DNA of 64,000 bases from Synergistaceae bacterium (GTDB lineage: Bacteria > Synergistota > Synergistia > Synergistales > Aminobacteriaceae), in NCBI GenBank assembly GCA_018436595.1, contig JAHDLC010000002.1, forward strand, positions 1 through 64,000, written 5' to 3'. Made by a program: the position numbers and the translations under genes. The notes beneath the pieces are model-generated. The model was not told the origin of the DNA, did not search any database, and worked only from the letters and a program-made list of their open reading frames with translations. Positions 16,983-33,057 of the stretch are shown here, one piece after another; positions within the stretch are counted from its first letter, which is position 1; every line of letters begins with the position of its first letter.

Positions 16983-18166
16983 AAACATCCATGTACTTCG
17001 GCCCCTTCGGGGGGCAGTACGTTCCCGAAACCCTCGTCCCCGCCCTGGACGAACTGGAGAAAGCCTATCTCGCCAGCCTGGAGGACCCGTCCTTCTCCGC
17101 CGAGATGGCCCCCCTGCTGCGGGATTACGTGGGCAGACCGTCGCCCCTGTATTTCGCCCCCCGCATCACCGAATCCCTCGGAGGAGCGAAAGTGTACCTC
17201 AAGCGGGAGGACCTGAACCACACCGGGGCCCACAAGATCAACAACGCCCTGGGCCAGGTGCTTCTCGCCCGGCGGATGGGCAAGAGGCGCATCATCGCCG
17301 AGACGGGTGCGGGAATGCACGGCGTGGCAACCGCCACCGCGGCGGCCCTCTTCGGCCTCGAGTGCGTGGTCTACATGGGCGAGGAGGACGTGCACCGCCA
17401 GGCCGCCAACGTGGCCCGGATGGACCTGCTCGGCGCAAAGGTCGTGTCCGTCATGTCAGGAACCAGGACCCTTAAGGACGCGGTGAACGAAGCCATCCGG
17501 GACTGGGTCACCACCGTGGAAGACTCCTTCTACGTCATCGGCTCCGTCATGGGCCCCCATCCCTACCCCCTCATGGTGAGGGACTTCCAGAAAATCATCG
17601 GCGAAGAGGCGAAGGCCCAGATCCTCGAAAAGGAGGGGCGCCTTCCCGACCAGGTGGTGGCCTGCGTGGGGGGCGGAAGCAACGCCATGGGCATCTTCCA
17701 TGCCTTCGTGGAACACCCGGAAGTGGCTCTAGTTGGGGTGGAGGCCGCCGGACGGGGAGTGGAGACGGGCCTCCACGCCGCCACCATCTCGGCGGGAAAG
17801 CCCGGCGTGCTCCACGGCTCCTACTCTTATGTGCTCTACGACGGGGACGGACAGATCCAGCCGGCCCACTCCATCTCCGCCGGGCTCGACTATCCCGGCG
17901 TTGGCCCCGAGCACAGCCACCTCGCCGAAACGGGCCGGGCATCCTATGTCTCCGCCACCGACGACGAGGCTGTGGAAGCCTTCCGGCGCACCTGCCGCCT
18001 GGAGGGGATCATCCCGGCCCTGGAGAGCTCCCACGCCCTCGCCCACGTCTACCGGTCGGCGGGAAGCCTGCCGAAGGACACCATCGTGCTGGTGAATCTG
18101 TCCGGCCGGGGAGACAAGGACATGGACACCATCCTGTCCCTGCAGTCAAAGGAGGAACAGTCATGA
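16979..18166 (+). CDS. trpB: Tryptophan synthase beta chain (first copy)
   Basis: 395-residue PLP enzyme that condenses indole with serine. The catalytic lysine is K86 in [29 protein letters not shown], the GGGSNAMG phosphate loop and the C-terminal SGRGDKDM are intact. It is a TrpB1-type protein by its short N-terminus and [12 protein letters not shown] form. The start is GTG overlapping the trpF stop, with AAAGGAGA upstream. It is followed by trpA with a 4 bp overlap, as in a normal heterotetramer pair. Confidence 0.96.
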
Positions 18167-19036: not shown

Positions 19037-20218
19037 ATGAAAAAGTTATCCATGACCTTCGGCCCCTTCGGGGGACAGCATGTTCCGGAAGTCCTTCTTC
19101 CCGCCCTTGGCGAACTGGAGGAAGCCTTTCTCGCGAGCCGGGAGGACCTGTCCTTCGCTGAAGAAATGACCCATCTGCTGCGGGACTACGTGGGCCGGCC
19201 CTCCCCCCTGTATTTCGCTTCCCGCATCACCGAATCTCTCGGAGGAGCGAAGGTGTACCTCAAGCGGGAGGACCTGAACCACACCGGGGCCCACAAAATC
19301 AACAACGTCCTGGGGCAGGCCCTTCTGGCGAAGCGCATGGGGAAGAAGCGGGTCATCGCCGAGACCGGGGCGGGGATGCACGGTGTGGCCACCGCCACCG
19401 CCGCAGCCCTCTTCGGCCTCGAGTGCACAGTCTACATGGGCGAGGAGGATGTGCGCCGCCAAGCCCCCAATGTGGCCCGGATGAAACTCCTGGGGGCGGA
19501 GGTGATCCCCGTCACCTCGGGCACCCGCACCCTGGCCGACGCCGTGGACGAGGCCATCGCCGCCTGGGTGGGGGAGGCGGGAAAGTCCTTCTATCTCCTC
19601 GGTTCCGTGGTGGGCCCCCACCCGTATCCCCTCATGGTGCGGGAATTCCAGAAGATCATCGGCGAGGAAGCCAAGGCCCAGATCCTCGAAAAGGAGAGGC
19701 GCCTTCCCGACCGGGTGGTGGCCTGCGTGGGCGGCGGAAGCAACGCCATGGGGCTCTTCCATGCCTTCGTGGAACACCCGGAAGTGGCCCTGGTTGGGGT
19801 GGAGGCCGCAGGGAAGGGCGTGGACTCCGAATTCCACGCCGCGACCCTCACGAAGGGGAAGCCCGGCGTGCTCCACGGCTCCTACTCCTACGTCCTCTAC
19901 GATGAAAACGGCGAGGTCCAGCCGGCCTACTCCATCTCCGCAGGGCTCGACTACCCTGGCGTGGGCCCCGAGCACAGCCACCTCGCCGAAACGGGCAGGG
20001 CGTCCTACGTCTCCGCCACCGACGACGAGGCCGTGGACGCCTTTCTGCGGACATGCAGGCTGGAGGGGATCATCCCGGCCCTGGAAAGCTCCCACGCCCT
20101 CGCCCACGTCTACCGCACGGCGGGCAGCCTGCCGAAGGACAGCATCGTTCTGGCGAACCTGTCGGGCCGGGGAGACAAGGACATGGACACCATCCTGTCC
20201 CTGCTGCAGGGGAAGTGA
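19037..20218 (+). CDS. trpB: Tryptophan synthase beta chain (second, tandem copy)
   Basis: 393 residues, very similar to the first copy along its whole length. The active-site lysine (K87 in [10 protein letters not shown]), phosphate loop (GGGSNAMG) and C-terminal SGRGDKDM are intact, so it should be active. The ribosome site AAAGGAGAGATC is the same as that before the first copy, which marks the start of a duplicated unit. It lies 79 bp after trpA without a terminator, so it probably belongs to the trp transcript. Its own trpA partner survives only as a scar downstream. Confidence 0.94.
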
Positions 20219-22551: not shown

Positions 22552-23385
22552 ATGAAACTGGACGTCCGGTACGGAGCAAACCCGAACGACTTCAGGCATT
22601 ACGACACGGAGCGGCTGCGGAATGACTTCCTCATCACCCGCCTTTTCGTTCCCGGAGAGATCAGGGTGACCTACAGCCACATCGACCGCATCATCACCGG
22701 CGGCGCCTGCCCGACTATCCCCCTGTCTCTTGAGTGCGGCAGGGAGATCGGGACGGAGTTCTTTCTCCAGCGCCGGGAGATGGGGATCATCAACGTTGGG
22801 GCACCGGGAACGGTCATCGCCGACGGAGAGCGGTTCCTCCTCAAGAAGCTGGACGGCCTCTACCTGGGGGCAGGAAACAGAAGCATCATCTTCGAGAGCG
22901 AAAACCACGACGACCATGCCCATTTTTACTTCAGCAGCGCCCCTGCCCACACCTCCCACCCCAACTGCTACATCGACATCGAGAAGGCGAAAAAGGTAAA
23001 AACGGGGGACCCGGAAAAAGCCAACGTCCGAACCATCAACCAGTACATCCATCCCGAGGTGTGCGCCACGTGCCAGCTCATGATGGGACTCACCCAGCTC
23101 GAAGCCGGCAGCGTCTGGAACACCATGCCGTGCCACACCCATGACCGGAGGATGGAAGTCTATTTCTACTTCGACATCCCCAGGGACGGCGTGACGTTCC
23201 ACATCTTCGGCCAGCCGGAGGAAACCCGCCACATCGTCGTCCGGAACGAGGAGGCTGTCATCAACCCAAGCTGGTCCATCCACAGCGCAGCGGGGATCTC
23301 CAGCTACAGCTTCATCTGGAGCATGGCGGGGGAGAACCAGGAATTCACCGACATGGACCACGTTCCCATGTCAGCCATGAAGTAG
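22552..23385 (+). CDS. kduI: 5-keto-4-deoxyuronate isomerase
   Basis: 277-residue cupin-fold isomerase (4-deoxy-L-threo-5-hexosulose uronate to 3-deoxy-D-glycero-2,5-hexodiulosonate) in pectin or glycosaminoglycan uronate catabolism. The zinc ligands known for the E. coli enzyme are all present one residue earlier: H195 and H197 (PCHTHDRR), E202 and H244 (WSIHSA). Length equals the family norm. AGAAGGGGGG precedes the ATG. kduD and other pathway genes are not adjacent, but the UxuA-like enzyme at 6.6 kb also makes or feeds a ketodeoxy sugar acid. Confidence 0.93.
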   Translation: MKLDVRYGANPNDFRHYDTERLRNDFLITRLFVPGEIRVTYSHIDRIITGGACPTIPLSLECGREIGTEFFLQRREMGIINVGAPGTVIADGERFLLKKLDGLYLGAGNRSIIFESENHDDHAHFYFSSAPAHTSHPNCYIDIEKAKKVKTGDPEKANVRTINQYIHPEVCATCQLMMGLTQLEAGSVWNTMPCHTHDRRMEVYFYFDIPRDGVTFHIFGQPEETRHIVVRNEEAVINPSWSIHSAAGISSYSFIWSMAGENQEFTDMDHVPMSAMK

Positions 23386-23394
23386 CCGGAACAA

Positions 23395-23440
23395 GAAGCC
23401 CGGAAATCCCACGCCTGGGGACTTCCGGGCTTCTTCGTTT
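23395..23440. terminator. Bidirectional terminator between kduI and copA
   Basis: GAAGCCCGGAAATCCC (23395-23410) pairs with GGGGA-CTTCCGGGCTTC (23417-23433), with T-rich sequence on the kduI side. It separates two convergent genes. Confidence 0.75.
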
Positions 23441-23455
23441 TCGGAGTTTTCCGGT

Positions 23456-25612
23456 TCACTTCACCCGCATGGAGTTCAGGATCACCGAAATGGAGCTGAA
23501 GGCCATGGCTCCCTCCGCGATGACGGGATGGAGCAGGGCCGCCATGGCCAGGGGAATGGCCACCACGTTGTAGGCGAAGGCCCAGAAGAGGTTCTGCCGG
23601 ATCACGGTGAAGGTCTTCCGCGAAATGGCCACGGCGTCGGCCAGCCGGGAGATGCCTCCCCTGACGATGACGATGTCGGCGCTGTCGATGGCGAGATCGG
23701 TGCCCGACCCGACGGCCACGCCGATGTCGGCGCCCTTGAGGGCCGCGGCGTCGTTCATGCCGTCGCCGGTCATGAGGACCTTGCCCCCCCGGGCCTGGAG
23801 CTGCCGTACCAGGTCCAGCTTGCCGTCGGGCCGGACCCCGGCGTGGACCTCGACGATCCCAACCCGGGCCGCCACAGCCCGGGCGGTCTTTTCGTTGTCC
23901 CCCGTGGCCATGACGCAGGTGATGCCCATGCCGGACAGGCGCTTCACGCCCTCAACCGCGTCCTCCCGGAGGGGATCCTCCACGGCGAGAAAGCCCGCGA
24001 GCACTCCTGCCCGCCGGACTTCCACCACGGTGCGCCCCATGGAGAGATGTTCGTCGTACCGTGCCGGGTCTCCGGGCTTCCCGACGAAGTATTCCACCCC
24101 GTCCACCGTTCCCCGGACACCCTCGCCGGTAATCTCCTCAACGCCCCCAACGGGGCGACGCTCATCGGAAGCCGATGCGATGGCCTTGGCCAGGGGATGG
24201 TTGGAGAAGGCCTCCACGGATGCCGCAGCGGCCAGGTCGTCCGCCGAAAGGTCGGTCTCCACGACGGAGGGGCTTCCCTCGGTGATGGTGCCGGTCTTGT
24301 CCAGAACCACCACGGACACGTCCCGGGCCGTCTGGATGGCCTCGGCGTTGCGGATGATGAGCCCCTTGCGGGAGGCCGCCCCGGTGCCGGTGATAAGGGC
24401 CATGGGGGTGGCGAGTCCAAGGGCGCAGGGACACGCGATGACGATGGTGGTGATGAAGGCGAAGACAGCCAGGGAAAGGGGGTCCCGCACGGAGGTCACC
24501 CAGGGGATCCACTGCCCGGCGCCGTCGAGGAAGGAGCCGAACCGTTCCGCACCCCGGTACCAGAAGAAAGCGCTCACCAGGGCCAGGGCCGCCACGCCGG
24601 GGACAAAGTAGTTGGTCACCCGGTCTGCGAAGGCCTGGATGGGCACCTTGGCCCCCTGGGCCTCCTGGATGAGGGAAACCATCTTTGCCAGGAAGCTGTC
24701 CTCTCCCACACGGGTGGTTTTCATCCGGAACGGGCCGGTGAGGTTCAGCGACCCTCCGGTGACATCATCTCCGCTTCCCTTGGCCACGGGAAGGGATTCT
24801 CCCGTGATCATGGACTCGTCCACCGACGTGGCTCCCTCCGTCAGGGCGCCGTCGGCGGGAATGCGCTCCCCGGGCTTCACAAGGAGCACCATTTCCTCCT
24901 TCACGGCCTCGATGGGGATCATAAGTTCCCGGCCGTCGGCCTCAAGCACCCGGGCCTCCCGGGCCTGGATGGACAGGAGAGAGCGTATCTCCTTGGAGGC
25001 CTTGTCCCGGAGATGGGACTCGATGTACCGCCCCGTGAGATGAAGGGCCATGATCATGGCTCCCACCGCCCCGAAGGAGGCCACGGGAAGGCCGAAATAG
25101 GCGAGGGCGCTCGTGGCCCACGCCGCCGTGGAGCCCGCCACCACGAGAACGTCCATGTTGGCGTGGAAATGGGTGAGGGCGATCCAGGCCCCTTTCAGGG
25201 AATCCCTGCCGGCCCAGAAGATCACCAGCGCGCCGCCAAGGAACTCCAGGGGGTGGTAGAAGGGAACATGGCGGCCCAGCATGTGGAGCACCATGAGGCC
25301 CATGAGAGGGGCCGTCACAAGCCACGAGACGGCCACGTTCTTTTTTATCCTTCTGTACCGGGTTTTCTCCAGGTCCTCCGGGCGCTCGTCCGACACGGCA
25401 TACCCGGCGTTCTTCACCGCCGTCTCAAAGGTTTCTCTGGGGATATCCCGGTCTGATACCACAAAGGCCGTCTCGGTGGCCAGGTTCACCGCCGCGAACA
25501 CCACGCCGTCCACCTTCTTCAGGGACCGCTCCACCATGCGGGAGCAGGTGGCACAGGTCATCCCCGTGACGGTGAGGCTCGTTTTGAACTGCTGCTCTTT
25601 CGTTTCGTTCAT
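23456..25612 (-). CDS. copA: Copper-exporting P1B-type ATPase
   Basis: 718-residue membrane pump. One N-terminal heavy-metal domain has GMTCATC (C20, C23). The membrane CPC motif is at 394-396, the phosphorylated Asp is D438 in DKTGT, the HP motif is SNHPLA, and the hinge is GDGMNDAAA. AYN in helix 7 and MAFSS in helix 8 match the Cu(I)-type set. Eight membrane helices fit the P1B plan. It follows a CopZ-like gene on the same strand, with a hairpin between them that may reduce copA expression. No CsoR or CopY gene is adjacent. Confidence 0.95.
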   Translation of the reverse strand: MNETKEQQFKTSLTVTGMTCATCSRMVERSLKKVDGVVFAAVNLATETAFVVSDRDIPRETFETAVKNAGYAVSDERPEDLEKTRYRRIKKNVAVSWLVTAPLMGLMVLHMLGRHVPFYHPLEFLGGALVIFWAGRDSLKGAWIALTHFHANMDVLVVAGSTAAWATSALAYFGLPVASFGAVGAMIMALHLTGRYIESHLRDKASKEIRSLLSIQAREARVLEADGRELMIPIEAVKEEMVLLVKPGERIPADGALTEGATSVDESMITGESLPVAKGSGDDVTGGSLNLTGPFRMKTTRVGEDSFLAKMVSLIQEAQGAKVPIQAFADRVTNYFVPGVAALALVSAFFWYRGAERFGSFLDGAGQWIPWVTSVRDPLSLAVFAFITTIVIACPCALGLATPMALITGTGAASRKGLIIRNAEAIQTARDVSVVVLDKTGTITEGSPSVVETDLSADDLAAAASVEAFSNHPLAKAIASASDERRPVGGVEEITGEGVRGTVDGVEYFVGKPGDPARYDEHLSMGRTVVEVRRAGVLAGFLAVEDPLREDAVEGVKRLSGMGITCVMATGDNEKTARAVAARVGIVEVHAGVRPDGKLDLVRQLQARGGKVLMTGDGMNDAAALKGADIGVAVGSGTDLAIDSADIVIVRGGISRLADAVAISRKTFTVIRQNLFWAFAYNVVAIPLAMAALLHPVIAEGAMAFSSISVILNSMRVK

Positions 25613-25623
25613 GGCAACCTCCG

Positions 25624-25658
25624 GAAAAGAAAAGCCCCTTTCCGCAAAGAAAGGGGGC
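25624..25658 (-). terminator. Hairpin with T tract between copZ and copA
   Basis: Read on the minus strand, GCCCCCTTTC (25658-25649) pairs with GAAAGGGGC (25642-25634) with one bulge, then TTTTCTTTT. It may partly terminate after copZ and give more chaperone than pump. Confidence 0.6.
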
Positions 25659-25684
25659 GTCTGTGAACTGTCGGGCCGGACCGC

Positions 25685-25885
25685 CTACTGCTTCAGGACG
25701 GCGTCATACCCTGCTTCGCCGATGGCGGCCAGAACGGCCTCGCTGTCGGCAGCCTCGACGGTCACTGTCTTCGTCTCCAGGGCAATGTCAAAACCGGAAA
25801 ACCCCGCTTCCTCGAGAGCCTTGGTGATTCTCATTTTGCAGTGGCCGCATGACATATCGGGAACGGAAAAAACAAACTGTGCCAT
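25685..25885 (-). CDS. CopZ-like heavy-metal-associated chaperone
   Basis: 66-residue single HMA domain with the metal loop DMSCGHC (C13, C16) and the usual beta-alpha-beta pattern. It likely carries Cu(I) to the adjacent CopA. The start is ATG at 25885, preceded by GAGGAGG; the frame runs to 25936 but that part lacks support. Upstream minus-strand sequence (25890-25990) is AT-rich and probably holds the promoter. Confidence 0.88.
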   Translation of the reverse strand: MAQFVFSVPDMSCGHCKMRITKALEEAGFSGFDIALETKTVTVEAADSEAVLAAIGEAGYDAVLKQ

Positions 25886-26032
25886 GGTTTTGCCTCCTCG
25901 AAAAGAAATGTTCGATCTTATAAACTTCCACGGCAAGATAATATACTATGATGGGTATTTTTTCCACTCCCGGGGATCCAATTCATACAAATTCAGTAAT
26001 ATATGCAGAAAAACCGGTACAGGGCAGGAAAA

Positions 26033-28105
26033 TCAGGTTGTGAGGCGGCCGCCGCCCAGGCTCCAGGAAACGGGAAAAAGCCGTCCGGTGAACTCGGGAT
26101 CGTGGCTGACCGCCACGATGGCCTCCCGGCGGGAGAGCATCCATTCCTCGAACCGGGCCTGCCATTCGGGGTCGAAATCCCTGGTGGGCTCGTCCAGCAG
26201 CAGGAGATCCCCCTCCCGGACGGAAAGGGAGGCCACCGCCACCATCCTCCGCTCTGCGGAGTTCAGGTCGAGGGGGTGCTTCTCCTCCTTCCTGGACAGC
26301 CCCGTCGCGGAGAGGGCCTGCCGCATGCGCTCCATGCGCTCGTCAGGTGACAGGGCAGATTTCCTGAGTGAGAAGAGCACTTCCCCGGCCACTGTGGAGT
26401 GGAAGATCTGCCGTTCGGCGTCCTGGAAGAGAAAGCCTATCCGGGCGGCCCGTTCTCCGGGAGCCATGGAGCCCACGGGCACGCCTCCCAGCAGCACCGC
26501 TCCGCATTCAGGCTCGAGAAGCCCCGCACACAGGCGCATAAGGGTTGATTTCCCGGCGCCGTTCGGTCCCGTGAGGGCGGCCCGCTCTCCCGGGCGGAGG
26601 ACGGCGTTCAGCGACCGGAGGAGGGGAGAGGTTTCCCCCTTCCACCGGAAGGAAAGATCGTCGATAACCAGCACCGGACGATCATCCTTCTTTTCCGGGA
26701 AAAGTGAAGAACCTGCCGCCGGCCGCCTGGAGCAAACGGGGGAGGGGCCGGGGAGAAGACGGCCGTCCCGGAAATGCCATGCCGGTGGAAACCACGGTGA
26801 AGAGGCGTTCCCCGGCTTCTCGAGGACTACAAGAGCTGTCCCCTCCTCCCGGGCCTGCCGGCGGAGAACGGAGGCGAGGGAGTGCCGGTCGGCGGGATGA
26901 ATCCGGGAAAAGGCCTCGTCGAGTACCAGCAGCCGGGGGGTCATGGCCAGGGCGGAAGCGAGGGCCAGCTTCTGGGCTTCCCCTCCGGAGAGGCATGCCG
27001 GGTTCCGGTCCCCGAGATGGGTGATGCCTGCGAGATCGAGGGCCCGTTCCACCCGGGTCCGGATTTCCGCGGGAGGGAGCGCCAGGTTTTCAGGGCCGAA
27101 GGCCACCTCCTCCCGGACTGTGAAGGTACATCCGGAGAGGGACAGGACAGGATTCTGCTGCACGGCCTGCACGTCCGGCGACCAGGCGAGACATGTCCTC
27201 GCTGTCACGTCCTCCCCGAGCACCCGGACGTTACCGGAGATGGAGCCACCCCTGTGCTCCGGCACGGCCCCGGAGAGCATGGAGGCCAGGGTGGATTTTC
27301 CGCTCCCGTTGCCCCCTTCAAGGAATGCGGTGTCTCCAGGCGCAACGGAAAACTCCGGAATCTCCAGGACGGGTTTTGTTTCTCCCGGGGCAAGAAAAGC
27401 GGCCTCCCTCAATTCAGCCACCTTTCCATTGAAGGTCTGAGGGGCCGGTTCGAGGGCGGGCAGGGCTCCGGTTTCCCCTTCCCGCGCAAGGGACGACCTG
27501 CGGGGGAAGAGTCCGAAGCCCTTCATGTCGAGGGCCGCGCTCCTTGCGGGCAGTTCGTTCAGCATGCCCAGCACCAGGGGAAAGACCAGCGCCGTCAGGG
27601 AGGACGCCCTCTCCAAGAAAGTGCCGTGGACCGGGACCCCCCGGGAGAGCTGGGCCTCCCGAACCTGGGCGGCCCGGGTCCGTATCTGCTCCGCCAGCAG
27701 CAGCGGGCTTGCGAGAAGGAAGGCCCAGGAGGCGGGGAGCCTGCCGGCGAAGAGGGAACGGATCAGGACCGGGGGAGGAACATATTCAAGCCAGAGCTGG
27801 CTCGCGGAGATCACGGAGAGTATGCGGAGCCACAGTCCCAAAGCCCACACGGCCCGGGAGGGCTGAACGGACCCTCCAAAGAAAAGCTGGAGGGCGCCGC
27901 CGTGGATCAGCCAGAAACCGAGGGCCAGGGGGAGCATGAAGAGGGCGACGGCCTTGGCACGGCGCCTCGCCCTCGGCCAGAGGAGAACCGCTCCCGCTGA
28001 GAGTCCCGCCATGACGGCGGCAAAGGGAAAGGCCGGGAGCCCCATAGAGCCCCCGACCCACACTGCCCAGAGGAGAAAGGACCTGAAGGGGCCGATCTTC
28101 CTCAC
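26033..28105 (-). CDS. ECF transporter module: EcfT-EcfA-EcfA' single-chain fusion
   Basis: 690 residues combining three subunits that are usually separate. Residues 1-205 are an EcfT-like membrane part with 5-6 hydrophobic segments and the two coupling motifs near EAQLSRGVP (150-158) and ARSAALDMKGF (187-197). Residues 240-455 are ABC domain 1: Walker A GGNGSGKST (264-272), signature CLSGGEAQK (371-379), Walker B RLLVLDEAF. Residues 475-690 are ABC domain 2: Walker A GPNGAGKST (513-521), a degenerate signature DLNSAERR (613-620), Walker B LLLLDEP and His switch VSHD. Domain 1 lacks the switch His (VVLEKP). This gives one consensus and one degenerate ATP site. It lies 6 bp after the S component. 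Confidence 0.9.
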   Translation of the reverse strand: MRKIGPFRSFLLWAVWVGGSMGLPAFPFAAVMAGLSAGAVLLWPRARRRAKAVALFMLPLALGFWLIHGGALQLFFGGSVQPSRAVWALGLWLRILSVISASQLWLEYVPPPVLIRSLFAGRLPASWAFLLASPLLLAEQIRTRAAQVREAQLSRGVPVHGTFLERASSLTALVFPLVLGMLNELPARSAALDMKGFGLFPRRSSLAREGETGALPALEPAPQTFNGKVAELREAAFLAPGETKPVLEIPEFSVAPGDTAFLEGGNGSGKSTLASMLSGAVPEHRGGSISGNVRVLGEDVTARTCLAWSPDVQAVQQNPVLSLSGCTFTVREEVAFGPENLALPPAEIRTRVERALDLAGITHLGDRNPACLSGGEAQKLALASALAMTPRLLVLDEAFSRIHPADRHSLASVLRRQAREEGTALVVLEKPGNASSPWFPPAWHFRDGRLLPGPSPVCSRRPAAGSSLFPEKKDDRPVLVIDDLSFRWKGETSPLLRSLNAVLRPGERAALTGPNGAGKSTLMRLCAGLLEPECGAVLLGGVPVGSMAPGERAARIGFLFQDAERQIFHSTVAGEVLFSLRKSALSPDERMERMRQALSATGLSRKEEKHPLDLNSAERRMVAVASLSVREGDLLLLDEPTRDFDPEWQARFEEWMLSRREAIVAVSHDPEFTGRLFPVSWSLGGGRLTT

Positions 28106-28111
28106 GTCCGC

Positions 28112-28678
28112 TCAGGCCACGTTTTCCGCACCGGGGAAGAGGCTCCGGATCCGCCCGGGAAGCTGCCGCACCACGGCCTGGGCCACGAGGCAGGCCACGA
28201 TCTTGTCCACAAGGTTGGTCCAGATCACCGTCAGGGCGACGGACTGGAGGAGTTTCTGCCCCACGGCGGTCAGGTAGGCCACGAAGAAGTCCGCCCCCGA
28301 CCCTGTCACGCCGCCGAACAGGTAGGTCCGGATGGGCGTGGCCACGAGGGTCACGAAAAGGGTGATCACCACGCCGGCGATCACGGCGCCTCCAAGGGTG
28401 CGGAACAGCCCCTTCCGGGCCGCGAATCCCGCCACGAGGCCGATGACCATGGCCACGGGAGCGAAGGCCGCCGCCACGGGCCCGGAAATGACGCCCCACA
28501 GCAGGTTGGTGACGAGTCCCGTGGCCATTCCGACCCACGGGCCCATGAGAAGGGCCGCCAGAACAGTGCCGATGGAATCGAGGAAGATGGGCAGCTTCAG
28601 GGTCGAGGCCGCCTGTCCGAGACCGATGTTCAGCGCGATGCACAAGGCGATAAGTACCAGGGTTCTGTTTTTCATCAT
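28112..28678 (-). CDS. ECF transporter substrate-binding (S) component
   Basis: 188-residue protein with six hydrophobic segments, the size and pattern of ECF S components, which bind a vitamin or other small molecule in the membrane and dock on EcfT. Small-residue motifs in the first helix, ALCIALNIGLGQA, suit the helix-1 contact with EcfT. The substrate cannot be assigned. The start overlaps the PPC gene stop (TGATG context) and the EcfTAA gene follows at once. Confidence 0.88.
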   Translation of the reverse strand: MMKNRTLVLIALCIALNIGLGQAASTLKLPIFLDSIGTVLAALLMGPWVGMATGLVTNLLWGVISGPVAAAFAPVAMVIGLVAGFAARKGLFRTLGGAVIAGVVITLFVTLVATPIRTYLFGGVTGSGADFFVAYLTAVGQKLLQSVALTVIWTNLVDKIVACLVAQAVVRQLPGRIRSLFPGAENVA

Positions 28679-29124
28679 TTATTCTCCTTTTTCGTCAGTG
28701 TTCGGGGCATGACCTCAAGTTCGTCGTAGGTCGAAAGAGGGCAGTATCCGCGGCGGAATTCCAGGCCGGGAAGATCCCCCAGCACCAGTTCCATGGTCGT
28801 GCGGACGATACATCCTTCCAGCACGTGTCCCCCCGTAACGGCGCCCCCGGGGTCCGAAACGGCCATGTGCAGATGTTCACCCGCTGCGTCGAGGGTCCCC
28901 ACAAGGGAGACGACCTCAAAGCAGCCGTCGGCCTCCGTTCCTTCAGGTTTGCCCGCGAATCGCAGGCAGACCCGCGACAGGCTGCCCACCACTCCTGCGA
29001 TATACCCCGCCCGAATTCCGCAGTTCCGGACAATGCGCCGCAGCGCACCAAGAAGCTCCTCGCCCGGAACCAGCCGGAAAGCCAAAAAGCGCCCTTGGGA
29101 TACTCCGATTTTCGTTTCGTTCAT
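28675..29124 (-). CDS. PPC/DUF296-domain protein
   Basis: 149 residues with the PPC (plants and prokaryotes conserved, DUF296) fold: FLAFRLVPGEELLGALRRIV, GYIAGVVGSL, LVGTLDAAGEHLHMAVSD and GGHVLEGCIV. The conserved His residues in GEHLHMAV and GGHVL may bind a metal, as in bacterial homologues of known structure. Bacterial function is unknown; plant members have an added AT-hook. The start at 29124 has AGGAGGAAGGG upstream; 4 bp overlaps on both sides place it inside a transport operon, suggesting a role with the imported ligand. Confidence 0.86.
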   Translation of the reverse strand: MNETKIGVSQGRFLAFRLVPGEELLGALRRIVRNCGIRAGYIAGVVGSLSRVCLRFAGKPEGTEADGCFEVVSLVGTLDAAGEHLHMAVSDPGGAVTGGHVLEGCIVRTTMELVLGDLPGLEFRRGYCPLSTYDELEVMPRTLTKKENK

Positions 29125-29969
29125 CCCTTCCTCCTGTACACCACCGGCGGAAGGAGAGGGTTCCCCAGGCCGGCTCCCTTCCCGAACCACTGGTCTATCG
29201 TTCCGTAGACCAGGCGGACAACCTCCTCCTGGACAATGCCCGCGGTACAGAAGAGCCTGCCCCCCCGCACCGCTTCCATCGCCTCCGGGATGGCGTCGAT
29301 ACCGCCCACGGGAGGGATGCATCCTCCCCGTTCTTCCACGGCCTGCAGCGCACCGAGGGCCATGAGATCATTGGCGCAGAAGATAACCCGCATATCCGGC
29401 AGAGCCGCAAGAAGACCGTGAACAAAACCATGGGCTTTTTTCCGGCAAAAATCCGCATATCCTGTAAGGATCCTGTCCTGGGGAAAAACCTTCGCAAAGG
29501 CGTGGAATGCTCCCCTGCACCGGGCCTCCGAGTGCATCGCATCACGGAATCCTCCCAGTATCAGAGCCCATCCGGCCGGATTTTTCCCAAAGCCTGAGAC
29601 CAGCTCGTCCGCAACGACCCGCCCCTGCTCACGGAAATCGGCGACCGGAACGGGATGGTATCCGGGTGCCCCGGCAACAGCGGCCGCGTCACACTTCGGC
29701 CCCACGTCGAACAGGGGCGTTCCTCCGGCATGGAGGACCACAGGGACAAGGTTTGTTGAGGAGAGGGGATTGATCACGATGGCGTCATATCCCTCTCCCA
29801 TCATCTCCTCCAGCACCTTCCGCTGCTCCTCGGGGTCGTTCCCGGCACGGGGGGCCCGGAACTCGGGAATAACGTCCCACAGTGGGGCGAGACGCTGATA
29901 CTGCTCCCTTTTTTCCCGCCAGAACGGATTGTCCGTGTCACAGAGCAGAATGCCGATACGCCGCGTCAT
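29121..29969 (-). CDS. Cytosolic periplasmic-binding-protein-like sensor (Peripla_BP_4 type)
   Basis: 282 residues of the ribose-binding/LacI ligand-binding fold but with no signal peptide and no helix-turn-helix; it begins directly at the first strand, RIGILLCDTDNPFW. It is clearly homologous to the exported protein encoded next upstream: NP(F/Y)W, GYDAI(V/I)(I/V)(N/T)P, a C-terminal half with (I/F)(Y/F)CANDLMAL. It should bind the same or a similar ligand in the cytosol. Possible roles are storage, sensing or handing ligand to a partner. It lies 9 bp after the exported copy and overlaps the PPC gene by 4 bp. Confidence 0.83.
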   Translation of the reverse strand: MTRRIGILLCDTDNPFWREKREQYQRLAPLWDVIPEFRAPRAGNDPEEQRKVLEEMMGEGYDAIVINPLSSTNLVPVVLHAGGTPLFDVGPKCDAAAVAGAPGYHPVPVADFREQGRVVADELVSGFGKNPAGWALILGGFRDAMHSEARCRGAFHAFAKVFPQDRILTGYADFCRKKAHGFVHGLLAALPDMRVIFCANDLMALGALQAVEERGGCIPPVGGIDAIPEAMEAVRGGRLFCTAGIVQEEVVRLVYGTIDQWFGKGAGLGNPLLPPVVYRRKG

Positions 29970-29978
29970 CGGAACAAA

Positions 29979-31007
29979 TTACTTCCAGCCCTCAAAATTG
30001 CCGATATTCCCGGCAGTCGCCAGCATGATGGGAATGGCCAGGCGCTCGGGAAGGTCGGTCGCCCTGCCGGCCAGCTTGACTGCGAAAACGATGGCCCCCC
30101 TCGTCCATGCCGCCTGGGAGAATGTCGTCGAACCCTGGAGTTTCCCCTCTTTGATGGCCGCCCTGGCCTCGGGTATGAAGTCCGTTCCGTAAATCAGCAC
30201 TCCCTCCCGCTTTCCCGATGTTTCCAGCGCATCGGCGGCGGCCAGCGCCATGACGTCGTTCGCGCAGTAGATGCCGCGAAGGTCCGGAACGACCTTGACG
30301 AGGTTCGTCGTGATATCGAAGGCGAGATTCCGGTCCCACTTGCCGGGCTGGACGGAGACGACCTCGACATTTCCTGCCGATGCAAAGACGTCGCCCGCCC
30401 CCTTCTTGCGGGCCTCGCTCTGCCCCGCTCCCGGTATCCCCTCGATGATCGCGACTTTTCCGCCTTCCGCGCCCATTTTCTTCACCATATCTTCCGCCGC
30501 GAGCCGTCCCTGGTCGAGGAAGGTCGCGCTGATCCACCCGTCGAGCCTGCCGCCCGCGTCCTTCAGCGCCTTGGCATCGATGGCGGGGCCGGAGCAGATG
30601 ACGGGAATCCCTTTTTCGTTCGCCTTCAGCACCCCCGGAATCAGGTTGAAGGGATCCATGGGCGTCACGATGATGGCGTCATATCCCTTGACGACCATCG
30701 TCTCGAGCGTTTCGAGCTGCGATTTGAGGTCGCCCTCGGCCGGAGCGGCCAGGATCTCCACGGAAACGTTCATTTCGGAAGCCCATTCCTCGTAGCGTTT
30801 CTTCATCTCCGTCCAGTAGGGATTGGAGAGGGTGATGACCAAAACCCCTATTTTCTTTCCGCCGCCGTCGGAGGGGATCTGCCCCAACTGAGACTCGATC
30901 GTCGCGATCGACTCCGCCACCATGGGGTTCATTGCGCCGAAGGCCGAACCCCATACGCTCAAAAGAAACACCAGCGCCAGAAAGACTCCTTCCACAGACC
31001 GCTTCAT
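29979..31007 (-). CDS. Sugar-type ABC transporter substrate-binding protein (CUT2)
   Basis: About 342 residues. A signal peptide (MKRS, hydrophobic core, GSAFGA cleavage region) is followed by the ribose-binding-protein fold: KIGVLVITLSNPYW, GYDAIIVTPMDPFNL, a mid-domain GWISATFLDQG, and YCANDVMALAAADAL. The ligand-stacking aromatic in NPYW is typical of sugar binders. Start 31007 follows GGGGAG; ATG 31028, overlapping the permease stop, is the alternative. The long first segment before strand 1 (about 35 residues) is unusual. Ligand unknown; ribose, inositol or another polyol are candidates. Confidence 0.88.
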   Translation of the reverse strand: MKRSVEGVFLALVFLLSVWGSAFGAMNPMVAESIATIESQLGQIPSDGGGKKIGVLVITLSNPYWTEMKKRYEEWASEMNVSVEILAAPAEGDLKSQLETLETMVVKGYDAIIVTPMDPFNLIPGVLKANEKGIPVICSGPAIDAKALKDAGGRLDGWISATFLDQGRLAAEDMVKKMGAEGGKVAIIEGIPGAGQSEARKKGAGDVFASAGNVEVVSVQPGKWDRNLAFDITTNLVKVVPDLRGIYCANDVMALAAADALETSGKREGVLIYGTDFIPEARAAIKEGKLQGSTTFSQAAWTRGAIVFAVKLAGRATDLPERLAIPIMLATAGNIGNFEGWK

Positions 31008-31024
31008 CTTCCCAAACTCCCCTT

Positions 31025-31960
31025 TCATTTTTTGCTCCCGTTCTTTTTCGAGCGCTCCGAAATAACCATCGCCGCCAGAATGATGAAACCTGTGACAAAT
31101 TGCTGGTAGTAGGACGAAATCCCCGCCAGGACAAGCCCGTTTTTTACCACCCCCATCAGGATTCCGGCGAAGAGCGTTCCGACAATGCGCGGTGCGCCGC
31201 CCCGGATTTTCGTTCCTCCCAAAACCACGGTGGCAATGGCGTTCATCTCCACCATGGTCCCGGCCAGCGGTTCCGCGCTGTTCAGCTTCGAGGTCAGGAT
31301 CACCGATGCGAGCGCGGCGCACATCCCGCACACAACGTACAGAACCGTCTTATACAGACGGGTGGCGGCTCCGTTCCGGCGCAGGGCTTCCTCGTTGCCT
31401 CCCAGCGCAGCGGCGTATATTCCCAATCGGGTGCAGCGGGCCAGGAAGCCCCCAGTTGCGACAACAGCGGTGCAGATCAGGGCAGAGACCGGGAGGCCGC
31501 CGACCTTCCCTCTGCCGATCCAGGAAAAATCCGCCGAGAAGCCGTAGATCGGAATTCCCTGGGTGACAATCAGCGCCCCGCCTCCGACGAGACTCATCAT
31601 GGCGAGAGTGGCCATGAACGGGTTGACCTCCAGTTTCACTACAAGGAGGGCGTTCAGAAGTCCCAGCAGAGCTCCTGTCAGCAGCGCCGCAGCTATGGTG
31701 GGGAGAACGCCGAAACCTGCCTTTATCAGGGAAGCCATAACGATCCCGCAGACAGCCACGTTCGCCCCCACGGACAGATCGATTCCCGCCGAGGCGATCA
31801 CCAGCGTCATCCCGACGGCAACGACAATGTTGATGCTGCTCTGGTCCAGGATGGTCACGATATTTTCCCCTGTAAGGAAGTGCGGCGAGATTCGGGAGAA
31901 GAACAGGGAGAGCGCGATGGCCGAGGCTCCTACCCAGAACGGCTGGGGAAGCCTATTCAT
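31025..31960 (-). CDS. Sugar-type ABC transporter permease (RbsC/BPD_transp_2)
   Basis: 311-residue inner-membrane permease with 8-10 hydrophobic segments. The family patterns GIDLSVGANVAVCGIV, the NALLVVKLEVNPFMATLAMMSLVGG stretch and GGTKIRGGAPRIVGTLFAGILMGVV are present. The start ATG at 31960 has GGAGGT at good spacing and overlaps the ATPase stop by 8 bp; an upstream ATG at 31978 has a weaker context. Confidence 0.9.
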   Translation of the reverse strand: MNRLPQPFWVGASAIALSLFFSRISPHFLTGENIVTILDQSSINIVVAVGMTLVIASAGIDLSVGANVAVCGIVMASLIKAGFGVLPTIAAALLTGALLGLLNALLVVKLEVNPFMATLAMMSLVGGGALIVTQGIPIYGFSADFSWIGRGKVGGLPVSALICTAVVATGGFLARCTRLGIYAAALGGNEEALRRNGAATRLYKTVLYVVCGMCAALASVILTSKLNSAEPLAGTMVEMNAIATVVLGGTKIRGGAPRIVGTLFAGILMGVVKNGLVLAGISSYYQQFVTGFIILAAMVISERSKKNGSKK

Positions 31961-32762
31961 CGCCTGCCACCTCCGCACTTTCCGCAGTGAGCGGCGGTGC
32001 TCCGGACATCATGGCAATCACGTCCTGCAGCGAAATATCACGGGTTTTTCCGCACCAGAGCTTCATTCCGGAACGCAGAACACATATCCTGTCGGCGATC
32101 CGGAACACCTGGGGAAGGTTGTGGGAGACGAAGAGGACAGCCATTTTTTTCTCCCTCAATCCACGAATGATACCGAGGACCAGTTCGCTTTCGCGTACAC
32201 CCATGGCTGCAGTGGGTTCGTCGAGGATGACGATGCCGGCATCCTTCCCGGCAGATGCCTGCATCACCGCACGGGCGATGGCGACCGCCTGGCGCTGCCC
32301 TCCGGAAAGGTCGGCTATCCGCGCCCTGGTCGAAGGAAGGTCTATTCCCAGTTCTTTGAGTCTGCGGGCAGCCTCCGAATGCATGCGGCCGCGGTCCACA
32401 AGAAACCCCGCCTTCAGCGGTTCGGCACCGAGGAAGAGGTTCGTCGCCACATCAAGGTCTTCCACCAGGGCAAGGTCCTGGTAGACCGCCGAAACGCCCT
32501 CCTCCATGGATTTCCGGGGAGAGAGGGAGAGAAACTCCTTGCCCCGCAGGCTTATAATGCCTCCGTCGGGGGTGATCGTCCCCGTGACGCATTTGATCAG
32601 CGTCGATTTTCCGGCGCCGTTGTCTCCAACGATGGCCAGTATTTCTCCCGAAGAAAGAGAAAGGGAAATACCTTTCAGAACCTCTACCCTGCCAAAGTTC
32701 TTTGAGAGTGCCTGTATTTCGAGGACCTGTTCCATTGGGTCATGTAAAGTCAAAGCCGACAT
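31953..32762 (-). CDS. Sugar-type ABC transporter ATP-binding protein (single domain)
   Basis: 269 residues with Walker A GDNGAGKST, signature LSGGQRQAVAIA, Walker B IVILDEPTAAM and switch VSHN. Most ribose-type ATPases carry two fused ATPase halves (about 500 residues); this one has only one, as in FrcA-like importers, so it should homodimerise. The start at 32762 follows GGAGGATTG. It is the first gene of the seven-gene unit running to 26033. Confidence 0.9.
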   Translation of the reverse strand: MSALTLHDPMEQVLEIQALSKNFGRVEVLKGISLSLSSGEILAIVGDNGAGKSTLIKCVTGTITPDGGIISLRGKEFLSLSPRKSMEEGVSAVYQDLALVEDLDVATNLFLGAEPLKAGFLVDRGRMHSEAARRLKELGIDLPSTRARIADLSGGQRQAVAIARAVMQASAGKDAGIVILDEPTAAMGVRESELVLGIIRGLREKKMAVLFVSHNLPQVFRIADRICVLRSGMKLWCGKTRDISLQDVIAMMSGAPPLTAESAEVAGDE

Positions 32763-32823: not shown

Positions 32824-32829
32824 ATTATA
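32824..32829 (-). promoter_or_regulatory. -10-like element for the seven-gene importer unit
   Basis: TATAAT on the minus strand, 62 bp upstream of the ATPase start, in an AT-rich stretch. The -35 (TTTTCC, 17 bp upstream) is weak, which would suit an activated or regulated promoter. Confidence 0.4.
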
Positions 32830-33057
32830 ACAAGAAAAGATGAAATGGAAAAGGAGGCCGGCATCGTTCCTTCCTCTTCCACAACCGCCCCTTGCGTTTT
32901 CTTTTTCTCGGGTGAAATCACCGGACTGTTCTGTGGTATCTTTTCCCTGACATGTCCGGATCTTTTATCCATCCCCTTCGGAAGGGGAGAGGGATACGCC
33001 TGTTTCGGATATCGTGGAGCGGCAGGGTGATTGGGACTCAAAGGGGGAGGTGACGGA

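Follow-up and report, generated by a model that had tools for sequence, protein, structure and literature searches.

The seven genes analyzed here within the window, by which we mean the whole stretch of 64,000 nucleotides from an anaerobic member of the phylum Synergistota, form an operon that is real, conserved, and composite, and its cytosolic binding-protein paralogue (cSBP) is the part deserving experiments. The locus is built from two modules that also exist apart: the genes for a CUT2-type importer together with that for cSBP, and those for a PCC (PPC/DUF296) protein together with an ECF importer. With moderate confidence, we read it as a composite operon whose two importers take up the same or related compounds, while in the cytosol the ligand is handled or sensed by cSBP and PCC. 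The internal binding protein is the unusual part; the pairing of two importers is not. In the literature, we found no paper describing the seven-gene composition, as the first-pass annotation had surmised, and no functional paper on a cytosolic paralogue of an importer's binding protein.

Organization of the seven-gene locus

All seven open reading frames are located on the minus strand and follow each other, from position 32762 down to 26033, in the order CUT2 ATPase, permease, exported binding protein (SBP), cSBP, PCC, ECF S component, and fused EcfT-EcfA-EcfA' (TAA) (Table 1). The gene content and the tight same-strand packing proposed in the first-pass annotation were both confirmed, the former by family matches and the latter by intergenic spacings of -26 to +9 bp, so that no two neighbors are separated by more than 9 bp and several overlap. 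The overlap of the ATPase and permease genes is 26 bp with one choice of start and 8 bp with the other; overlaps of 4 bp each connect permease with SBP, cSBP with PCC, and PCC with S, and gaps of 9 and 6 bp separate SBP from cSBP and S from TAA, respectively. Judged from this spacing, the single transcript that had been claimed for the seven genes is plausible. The extended -10 element TGTTATAATTTTCAT is present upstream of the window ATPase gene, and TGTTATAATTTTCAT also lies upstream of the seven-gene unit of genome G040. Control by a riboswitch was rejected, since an Rfam search of the window returned no element at gathering score.

Table 1. Features of the seven-gene locus (positions within the window)
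Feature	Position	Strand	Remarks
Promoter-like sequence, 5' of the ATPase gene	32824..32851	-	TTTCCA-16-TATAAT, TG before the -10 (extended -10)
CUT2-type ABC ATPase, single nucleotide-binding domain, 269 aa	31953..32762	-	PF00005; alternative start 32735
CUT2 permease, 317 aa	31025..31978	-	PF02653 (BPD_transp_2); 242 bits to the ribose permease model; possible ATG start at 31960
Exported SBP, 349 aa	29979..31028	-	PF13407 (Peripla_BP_4); N-terminal signal sequence judged by eye
cSBP (signal-less SBP paralogue), 282 aa	29121..29969	-	PF13407 (Peripla_BP_4); 36% identical to SBP
PCC/DUF296 (PPC) protein, 149 aa	28675..29124	-	PF03479; 145 bits to Salmonella 2HX0/2NMU
Recombination boundary, PCC vs S genes	28670..28720		Nucleotide identity to same-genus genomes changes from about 60% to over 90%
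ECF S component, 188 aa	28112..28678	-	PF12822 (ECF_trnsprt); S-component fold by Foldseek
Fused EcfT-EcfA-EcfA', 690 aa	26033..28105	-	ABC_tran domains at 251-399 and about 480-670; EcfT-like N-terminus

The permease and the exported Peripla_BP_4 protein, encoded together, mark the first module as a CUT2 importer resembling AlsBAC, RbsABC, and Frc-type systems, to which its CUT2-like ATPase also conforms; the nearest solved structures of the SBP are D-allose-binding proteins. The module differs from these systems in being always accompanied by a cytosolic SBP paralogue, in a G-P pair at the D-E positions of AlsB, and in its ATPase, which possesses one ABC_tran domain instead of the usual two fused ones and which, among NCBIfam models, scores best to the N-terminal halves of YtfR, XylG, AraG, and RbsA, all below cut-off. 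Single-domain CUT2-like ATPases, e.g., FrcA, are known. The second module is an ECF importer, since one operon supplies its S component, its EcfT, and both of its ECF ATPases; both ABC_tran domains of the fused protein score best to ECF ATPase models.

Downstream of the unit (22552-25936), the window carries a KduI-like gene, a copper ATPase gene, and a CopZ-like gene in an order that is conserved in sister genomes. Its trp cluster contains tandem genes (16991-18166 and 19037-20218), both of which resemble, by eye, the gene for the tryptophan synthase beta subunit.

The PCC-ECF unit in other bacteria

PCC-S-T-A-A is a widespread unit that is common outside Synergistota, and it is hence not new. 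It has already been annotated in Salmonella (STM3071 onward), Paracoccus yeei, and Escherichia coli, and is present in 3293 of 5426 complete E. coli genomes (61%), at a site between epd and a gene of the nucleoside/nucleotide-kinase family. The window shares this gene order, with PCC directly before S, T, A, and A, and its S and PCC proteins are about 60% and about 50% identical, respectively, to their counterparts in these Proteobacteria. It differs from them by the fusion of T with the two A domains and by the CUT2-cSBP module that precedes the unit; no CUT2 partner was found beside the proteobacterial PCC-ECF units in the stretches examined.

A structural search with the window S component gave generic S-component matches only and no hint of a ligand. 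The protein belongs to the same broad family as CD3073, whose gene is accompanied by that for the TudS-related desulfidase CD3072, but its score against the CD3073 family model (NF045596; 155 bits) lies below the curated cut-off of 180. The S proteins of CD3073/CD3072 loci are 35-42% identical to that of the window, and their genes neighbor those for double-cubane reductases, DUF3343, or selenium genes; the desulfidase gene is present beside these homologues, and none was found in the window unit or its close relatives. A thio-compound ligand of the type considered for CD3073/CD3072 loci was rejected, because no desulfidase occurs near the window's S clade. Distant CD3073-like S genes paired with a CD3072 desulfidase were observed at L073 (7726-10479), L122 (3649-7106), and L123 (6634-8763), in varying combinations with a double-cubane reductase, a BadF-type activase, and a DUF3343-like protein, and in Enterococcus raffinosus such a pair ends a selenium operon; these loci give a lead to the import of a thio- or seleno-compound.

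Distribution of the two modules in Synergistota

We assessed both modules in a sample of 188 Synergistota genomes from 63 genera, scoring as true cSBPs those with more than 270 bits to the profile plus one partial copy. The close S/TAA unit is found in 14 genomes and a true cSBP in 15, and nine genomes possess both. Both modules are represented in five genera, the ECF module only in one, cSBP only in two, and neither in the remaining 55 (hypergeometric p=1.7e-5, with unlinked cases counted and genera treated as independent, which is only approximately true). The full seven-gene order is contiguous in three genera (G000, G040, and the much more divergent G016), and its recurrence in the further genera G040 and G016 makes the arrangement more than chance. 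The modules lie apart within the Dethiosulfovibrio-type genomes G071, G079, G128, and G131 and in G153; the ECF half occurs without the CUT2 half in three genomes of the window's genus and in G036 and G010. Pyramidobacter genomes contain the CUT2 half alone, and the CUT2-cSBP half is found either alone or inside other operons. The search for co-occurrence of the seven families that the first-pass annotation had proposed thus gave a mixed outcome: the full order recurs and the modules are associated at the level of genera, but they are often apart.

The ATPase-permease-SBP-cSBP set is a Synergistota module. Within the 188 genomes, all 13 SBPs of the window clade have a cSBP gene immediately downstream of their own. 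A scan of the genome collection with two peptide patterns revealed no cSBP outside Synergistota except on one 3-kb contig binned as Phycisphaerales (L077, 1-3011), whose SBP-cSBP-PCC genes are 74-92% identical to those of Synergistaceae; this contig is probably a mis-binned piece of a Synergistota genome.

A mosaic joint between the PCC and S genes

In three genomes of the window's genus, the same locus reads PCC-S-TAA followed by the CopA gene, with KduI next in two of them, and contains no CUT2 half. The S and TAA proteins of the window are 95-97% and 87-89% identical to those of these genomes, whereas its PCC is only 59-63% identical; its identity to the PCC proteins of G040, G036, and L077 is 77-80%. 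The step in nucleotide identity at the PCC|S joint (Table 1) recurs at fourfold-degenerate sites (28-36% in PCC, 78-86% in S) and points to the genes from ATPase to PCC being a different allele joined to the resident S-TAA genes. We infer the direction of this transfer; a PCC protein tree by itself gave no clear placement of the window copy. An accelerated evolution of PCC in the sister genomes was rejected as the cause, because the fourfold-site identity of PCC is far below that of S. On these grounds, a reading of the locus as one new, indivisible system is not supported: its PCC-ECF half is common elsewhere, its CUT2-cSBP half occurs separately, and the window is a mosaic of both. As to whether the halves are merely local neighbors, their association reaches beyond this locus, while the same-genus genomes carry only PCC-S-TAA there.

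The putative cytosolic binding protein

Binding proteins of ABC importers normally act outside the membrane. The cSBP protein begins at the first core strand and has no signal sequence; its AlphaFold2 model (pLDDT 89.9) superimposes on complete two-lobed sugar SBPs with a TM score of about 0.85. SBP and cSBP have in common the motifs N-P-[YF]-W, a conserved R, aromatic-x-R, C-A-N-D, and G-x-D-x-I-P, and both possess the G-P pair at the AlsB D-E positions and F-x-x-Q-G at AlsB D-N, features that are absent from more distant sugar-type SBPs. All these positions were assigned to the pocket by homology to RbsB/AlsB. The pocket residues are invariant across cSBP copies that are 35 to 75% identical. 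Because the pocket residues shared by SBP and cSBP differ from those of sugar-binding relatives, the two proteins probably bind the same ligand. We infer a cytosolic location and a ligand-handling role for cSBP. It shares its cytosolic periplasmic-binding-protein fold with LacI/RbsR-type sugar sensors but differs from them in lacking a DNA-binding domain, no N-terminal helix-turn-helix being found in cSBP, and in being most similar to the SBP of its own operon.

With this conserved pair and its retained pocket, one can ask directly if a retooled binding protein is used by cells to carry, buffer, or sense the nutrients they import. Because ligand screening is simpler for the soluble SBP and cSBP than for the membrane-embedded S component, the pair also provides a route to the ligand of the PCC-ECF unit that so many E. 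coli genomes possess.

The PCC protein and its changing importer neighbors

The residues R17, H84, H86, H100, and E112 are invariant in PCC, which is likely a metal- or ligand-binding protein. Its genetic neighborhood varies. In G014 (Fretibacterium), a genome without an SBP of the clade, the cSBP and PCC genes follow a TRAP-TAXI importer; in L077, a gene for a C-GCAxxG-C-C protein lies between them; and on contig C12 of G016, a PCC gene has a second CUT2 importer on one side and, on the other, an ABC importer that looks NMT1/SsuA-like by eye. These neighborhoods suggest that cSBP and PCC serve ligand handling irrespective of the type of importer. More tentatively, cSBP might found a new class of intracellular solute receptors that is derived from an ABC importer's own SBP and that, with PCC, captures imported ligand in the cytosol for whichever importer is present (CUT2, ECF, or TRAP-TAXI).

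The N-termini of the PCC proteins at L165 (5089-5613) and L121 (2821-3354) resemble signal sequences, and these PCC domains are possibly exported. At L158, L164, and L176, PCC genes are part of operons for TRAP importers and 2-oxoacid-dehydrogenase subunits, the enzymes having been assigned by eye.

A working model and its alternatives

In the composite operon that we favor, a CUT2 importer consistently associated with cSBP would operate beside a widespread PCC-ECF importer, and both would most likely take up one compound or close relatives. Having a pocket that matches SBP and not its sugar-binding relatives, cSBP may bind the imported ligand inside the cell, where it and PCC could buffer, sense, or pass on the ligand. 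In the window strain, the five genes from ATPase to PCC are a different allele that recombined beside the resident S-TAA genes. This history also leaves room for an accidental adjacency, in which a mobile five-gene CUT2-cSBP-PCC block recombined, by way of the shared PCC gene, into a place beside an unrelated ECF importer with a different ligand. The sharpness of the mosaic boundary, the same-genus loci without a CUT2 half, the independent existence of each module, and the homology for recombination that a shared PCC gene would supply all speak for such an accident. We nevertheless consider it rather unlikely, as the seven-gene order recurs in G040 and in the far more distant G016, the genus-level co-occurrence takes in unlinked cases, and start/stop overlaps have been retained across the PCC|S joint.

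Peripla_BP folds form the sensor domains of LacI-type repressors. Hence cSBP might be a regulator without a DNA-binding domain of its own and not a carrier, for instance a ligand-dependent partner of PCC acting as the transcription factor of the operon. The two genes adjoin, PCC proteins are annotated as DNA-binding, and a thesis on Salmonella STM3071 has, according to its title as cited in PMC11481890, a possible regulator of cobalt transport as its topic. The DNA-binding name, however, derives from the AHL proteins of plants, and the window PCC lacks their AT-hooks; the invariant H/H/H/E/R set fits a metal or ligand site better, and Dethiosulfovibrio and Pyramidobacter possess cSBP without an adjacent PCC. 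We therefore judge a regulatory role to be improbable. That cSBP is a decaying duplicate of SBP without a function of its own is very improbable indeed: it does evolve faster than SBP (75% vs 89% identity between the window and G040), and some cSBPs lack a counterpart of the RbsB glutamine, but each complete copy is intact, has an invariant pocket, stays in frame, and is in most cases coupled to the SBP gene, and G014 has kept cSBP without SBP.

Clues to the ligand

Several neighborhoods, on the side of the S component as well as that of SBP, point to nucleosides or ribosyl compounds. Homologues of the S component adjoin nucleoside hydrolases in Haladaptatus, Halomarina, and Lacticaseibacillus paracasei; relatives of the SBP clade adjoin a PsuG-like protein, or PfkB plus two ADP-ribosylglycohydrolases; and a uridine-kinase-like gene and a purine permease gene lie downstream of the G016 unit. 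PsuG and nucleoside hydrolases were rejected as partners in the window's genome, in which neither family was found; a nucleoside therefore remains a lead, and their absence speaks against one that these enzymes would cleave. Beyond the phylum, SBP relatives look like sugar importers and occur with PfkB kinases and TIM-barrel epimerases, which counts against a nucleoside as well. Overall, a ligand of the nucleoside type is a weak lead and appears rather unlikely.

The CUT2-cSBP module adjoins corrinoid methyltransferases in Dethiosulfovibrio and a double-cubane reductase in G153; the downstream chemistry therefore varies. At the Dethiosulfovibrio-type loci L063 (9643-15054), L066 (5505-10916), and L114 (3289-8667), the module is followed by genes for a corrinoid protein, URO-D-type methyltransferases, and an AcsV-like activator, which suggests a methylated ligand at these loci.
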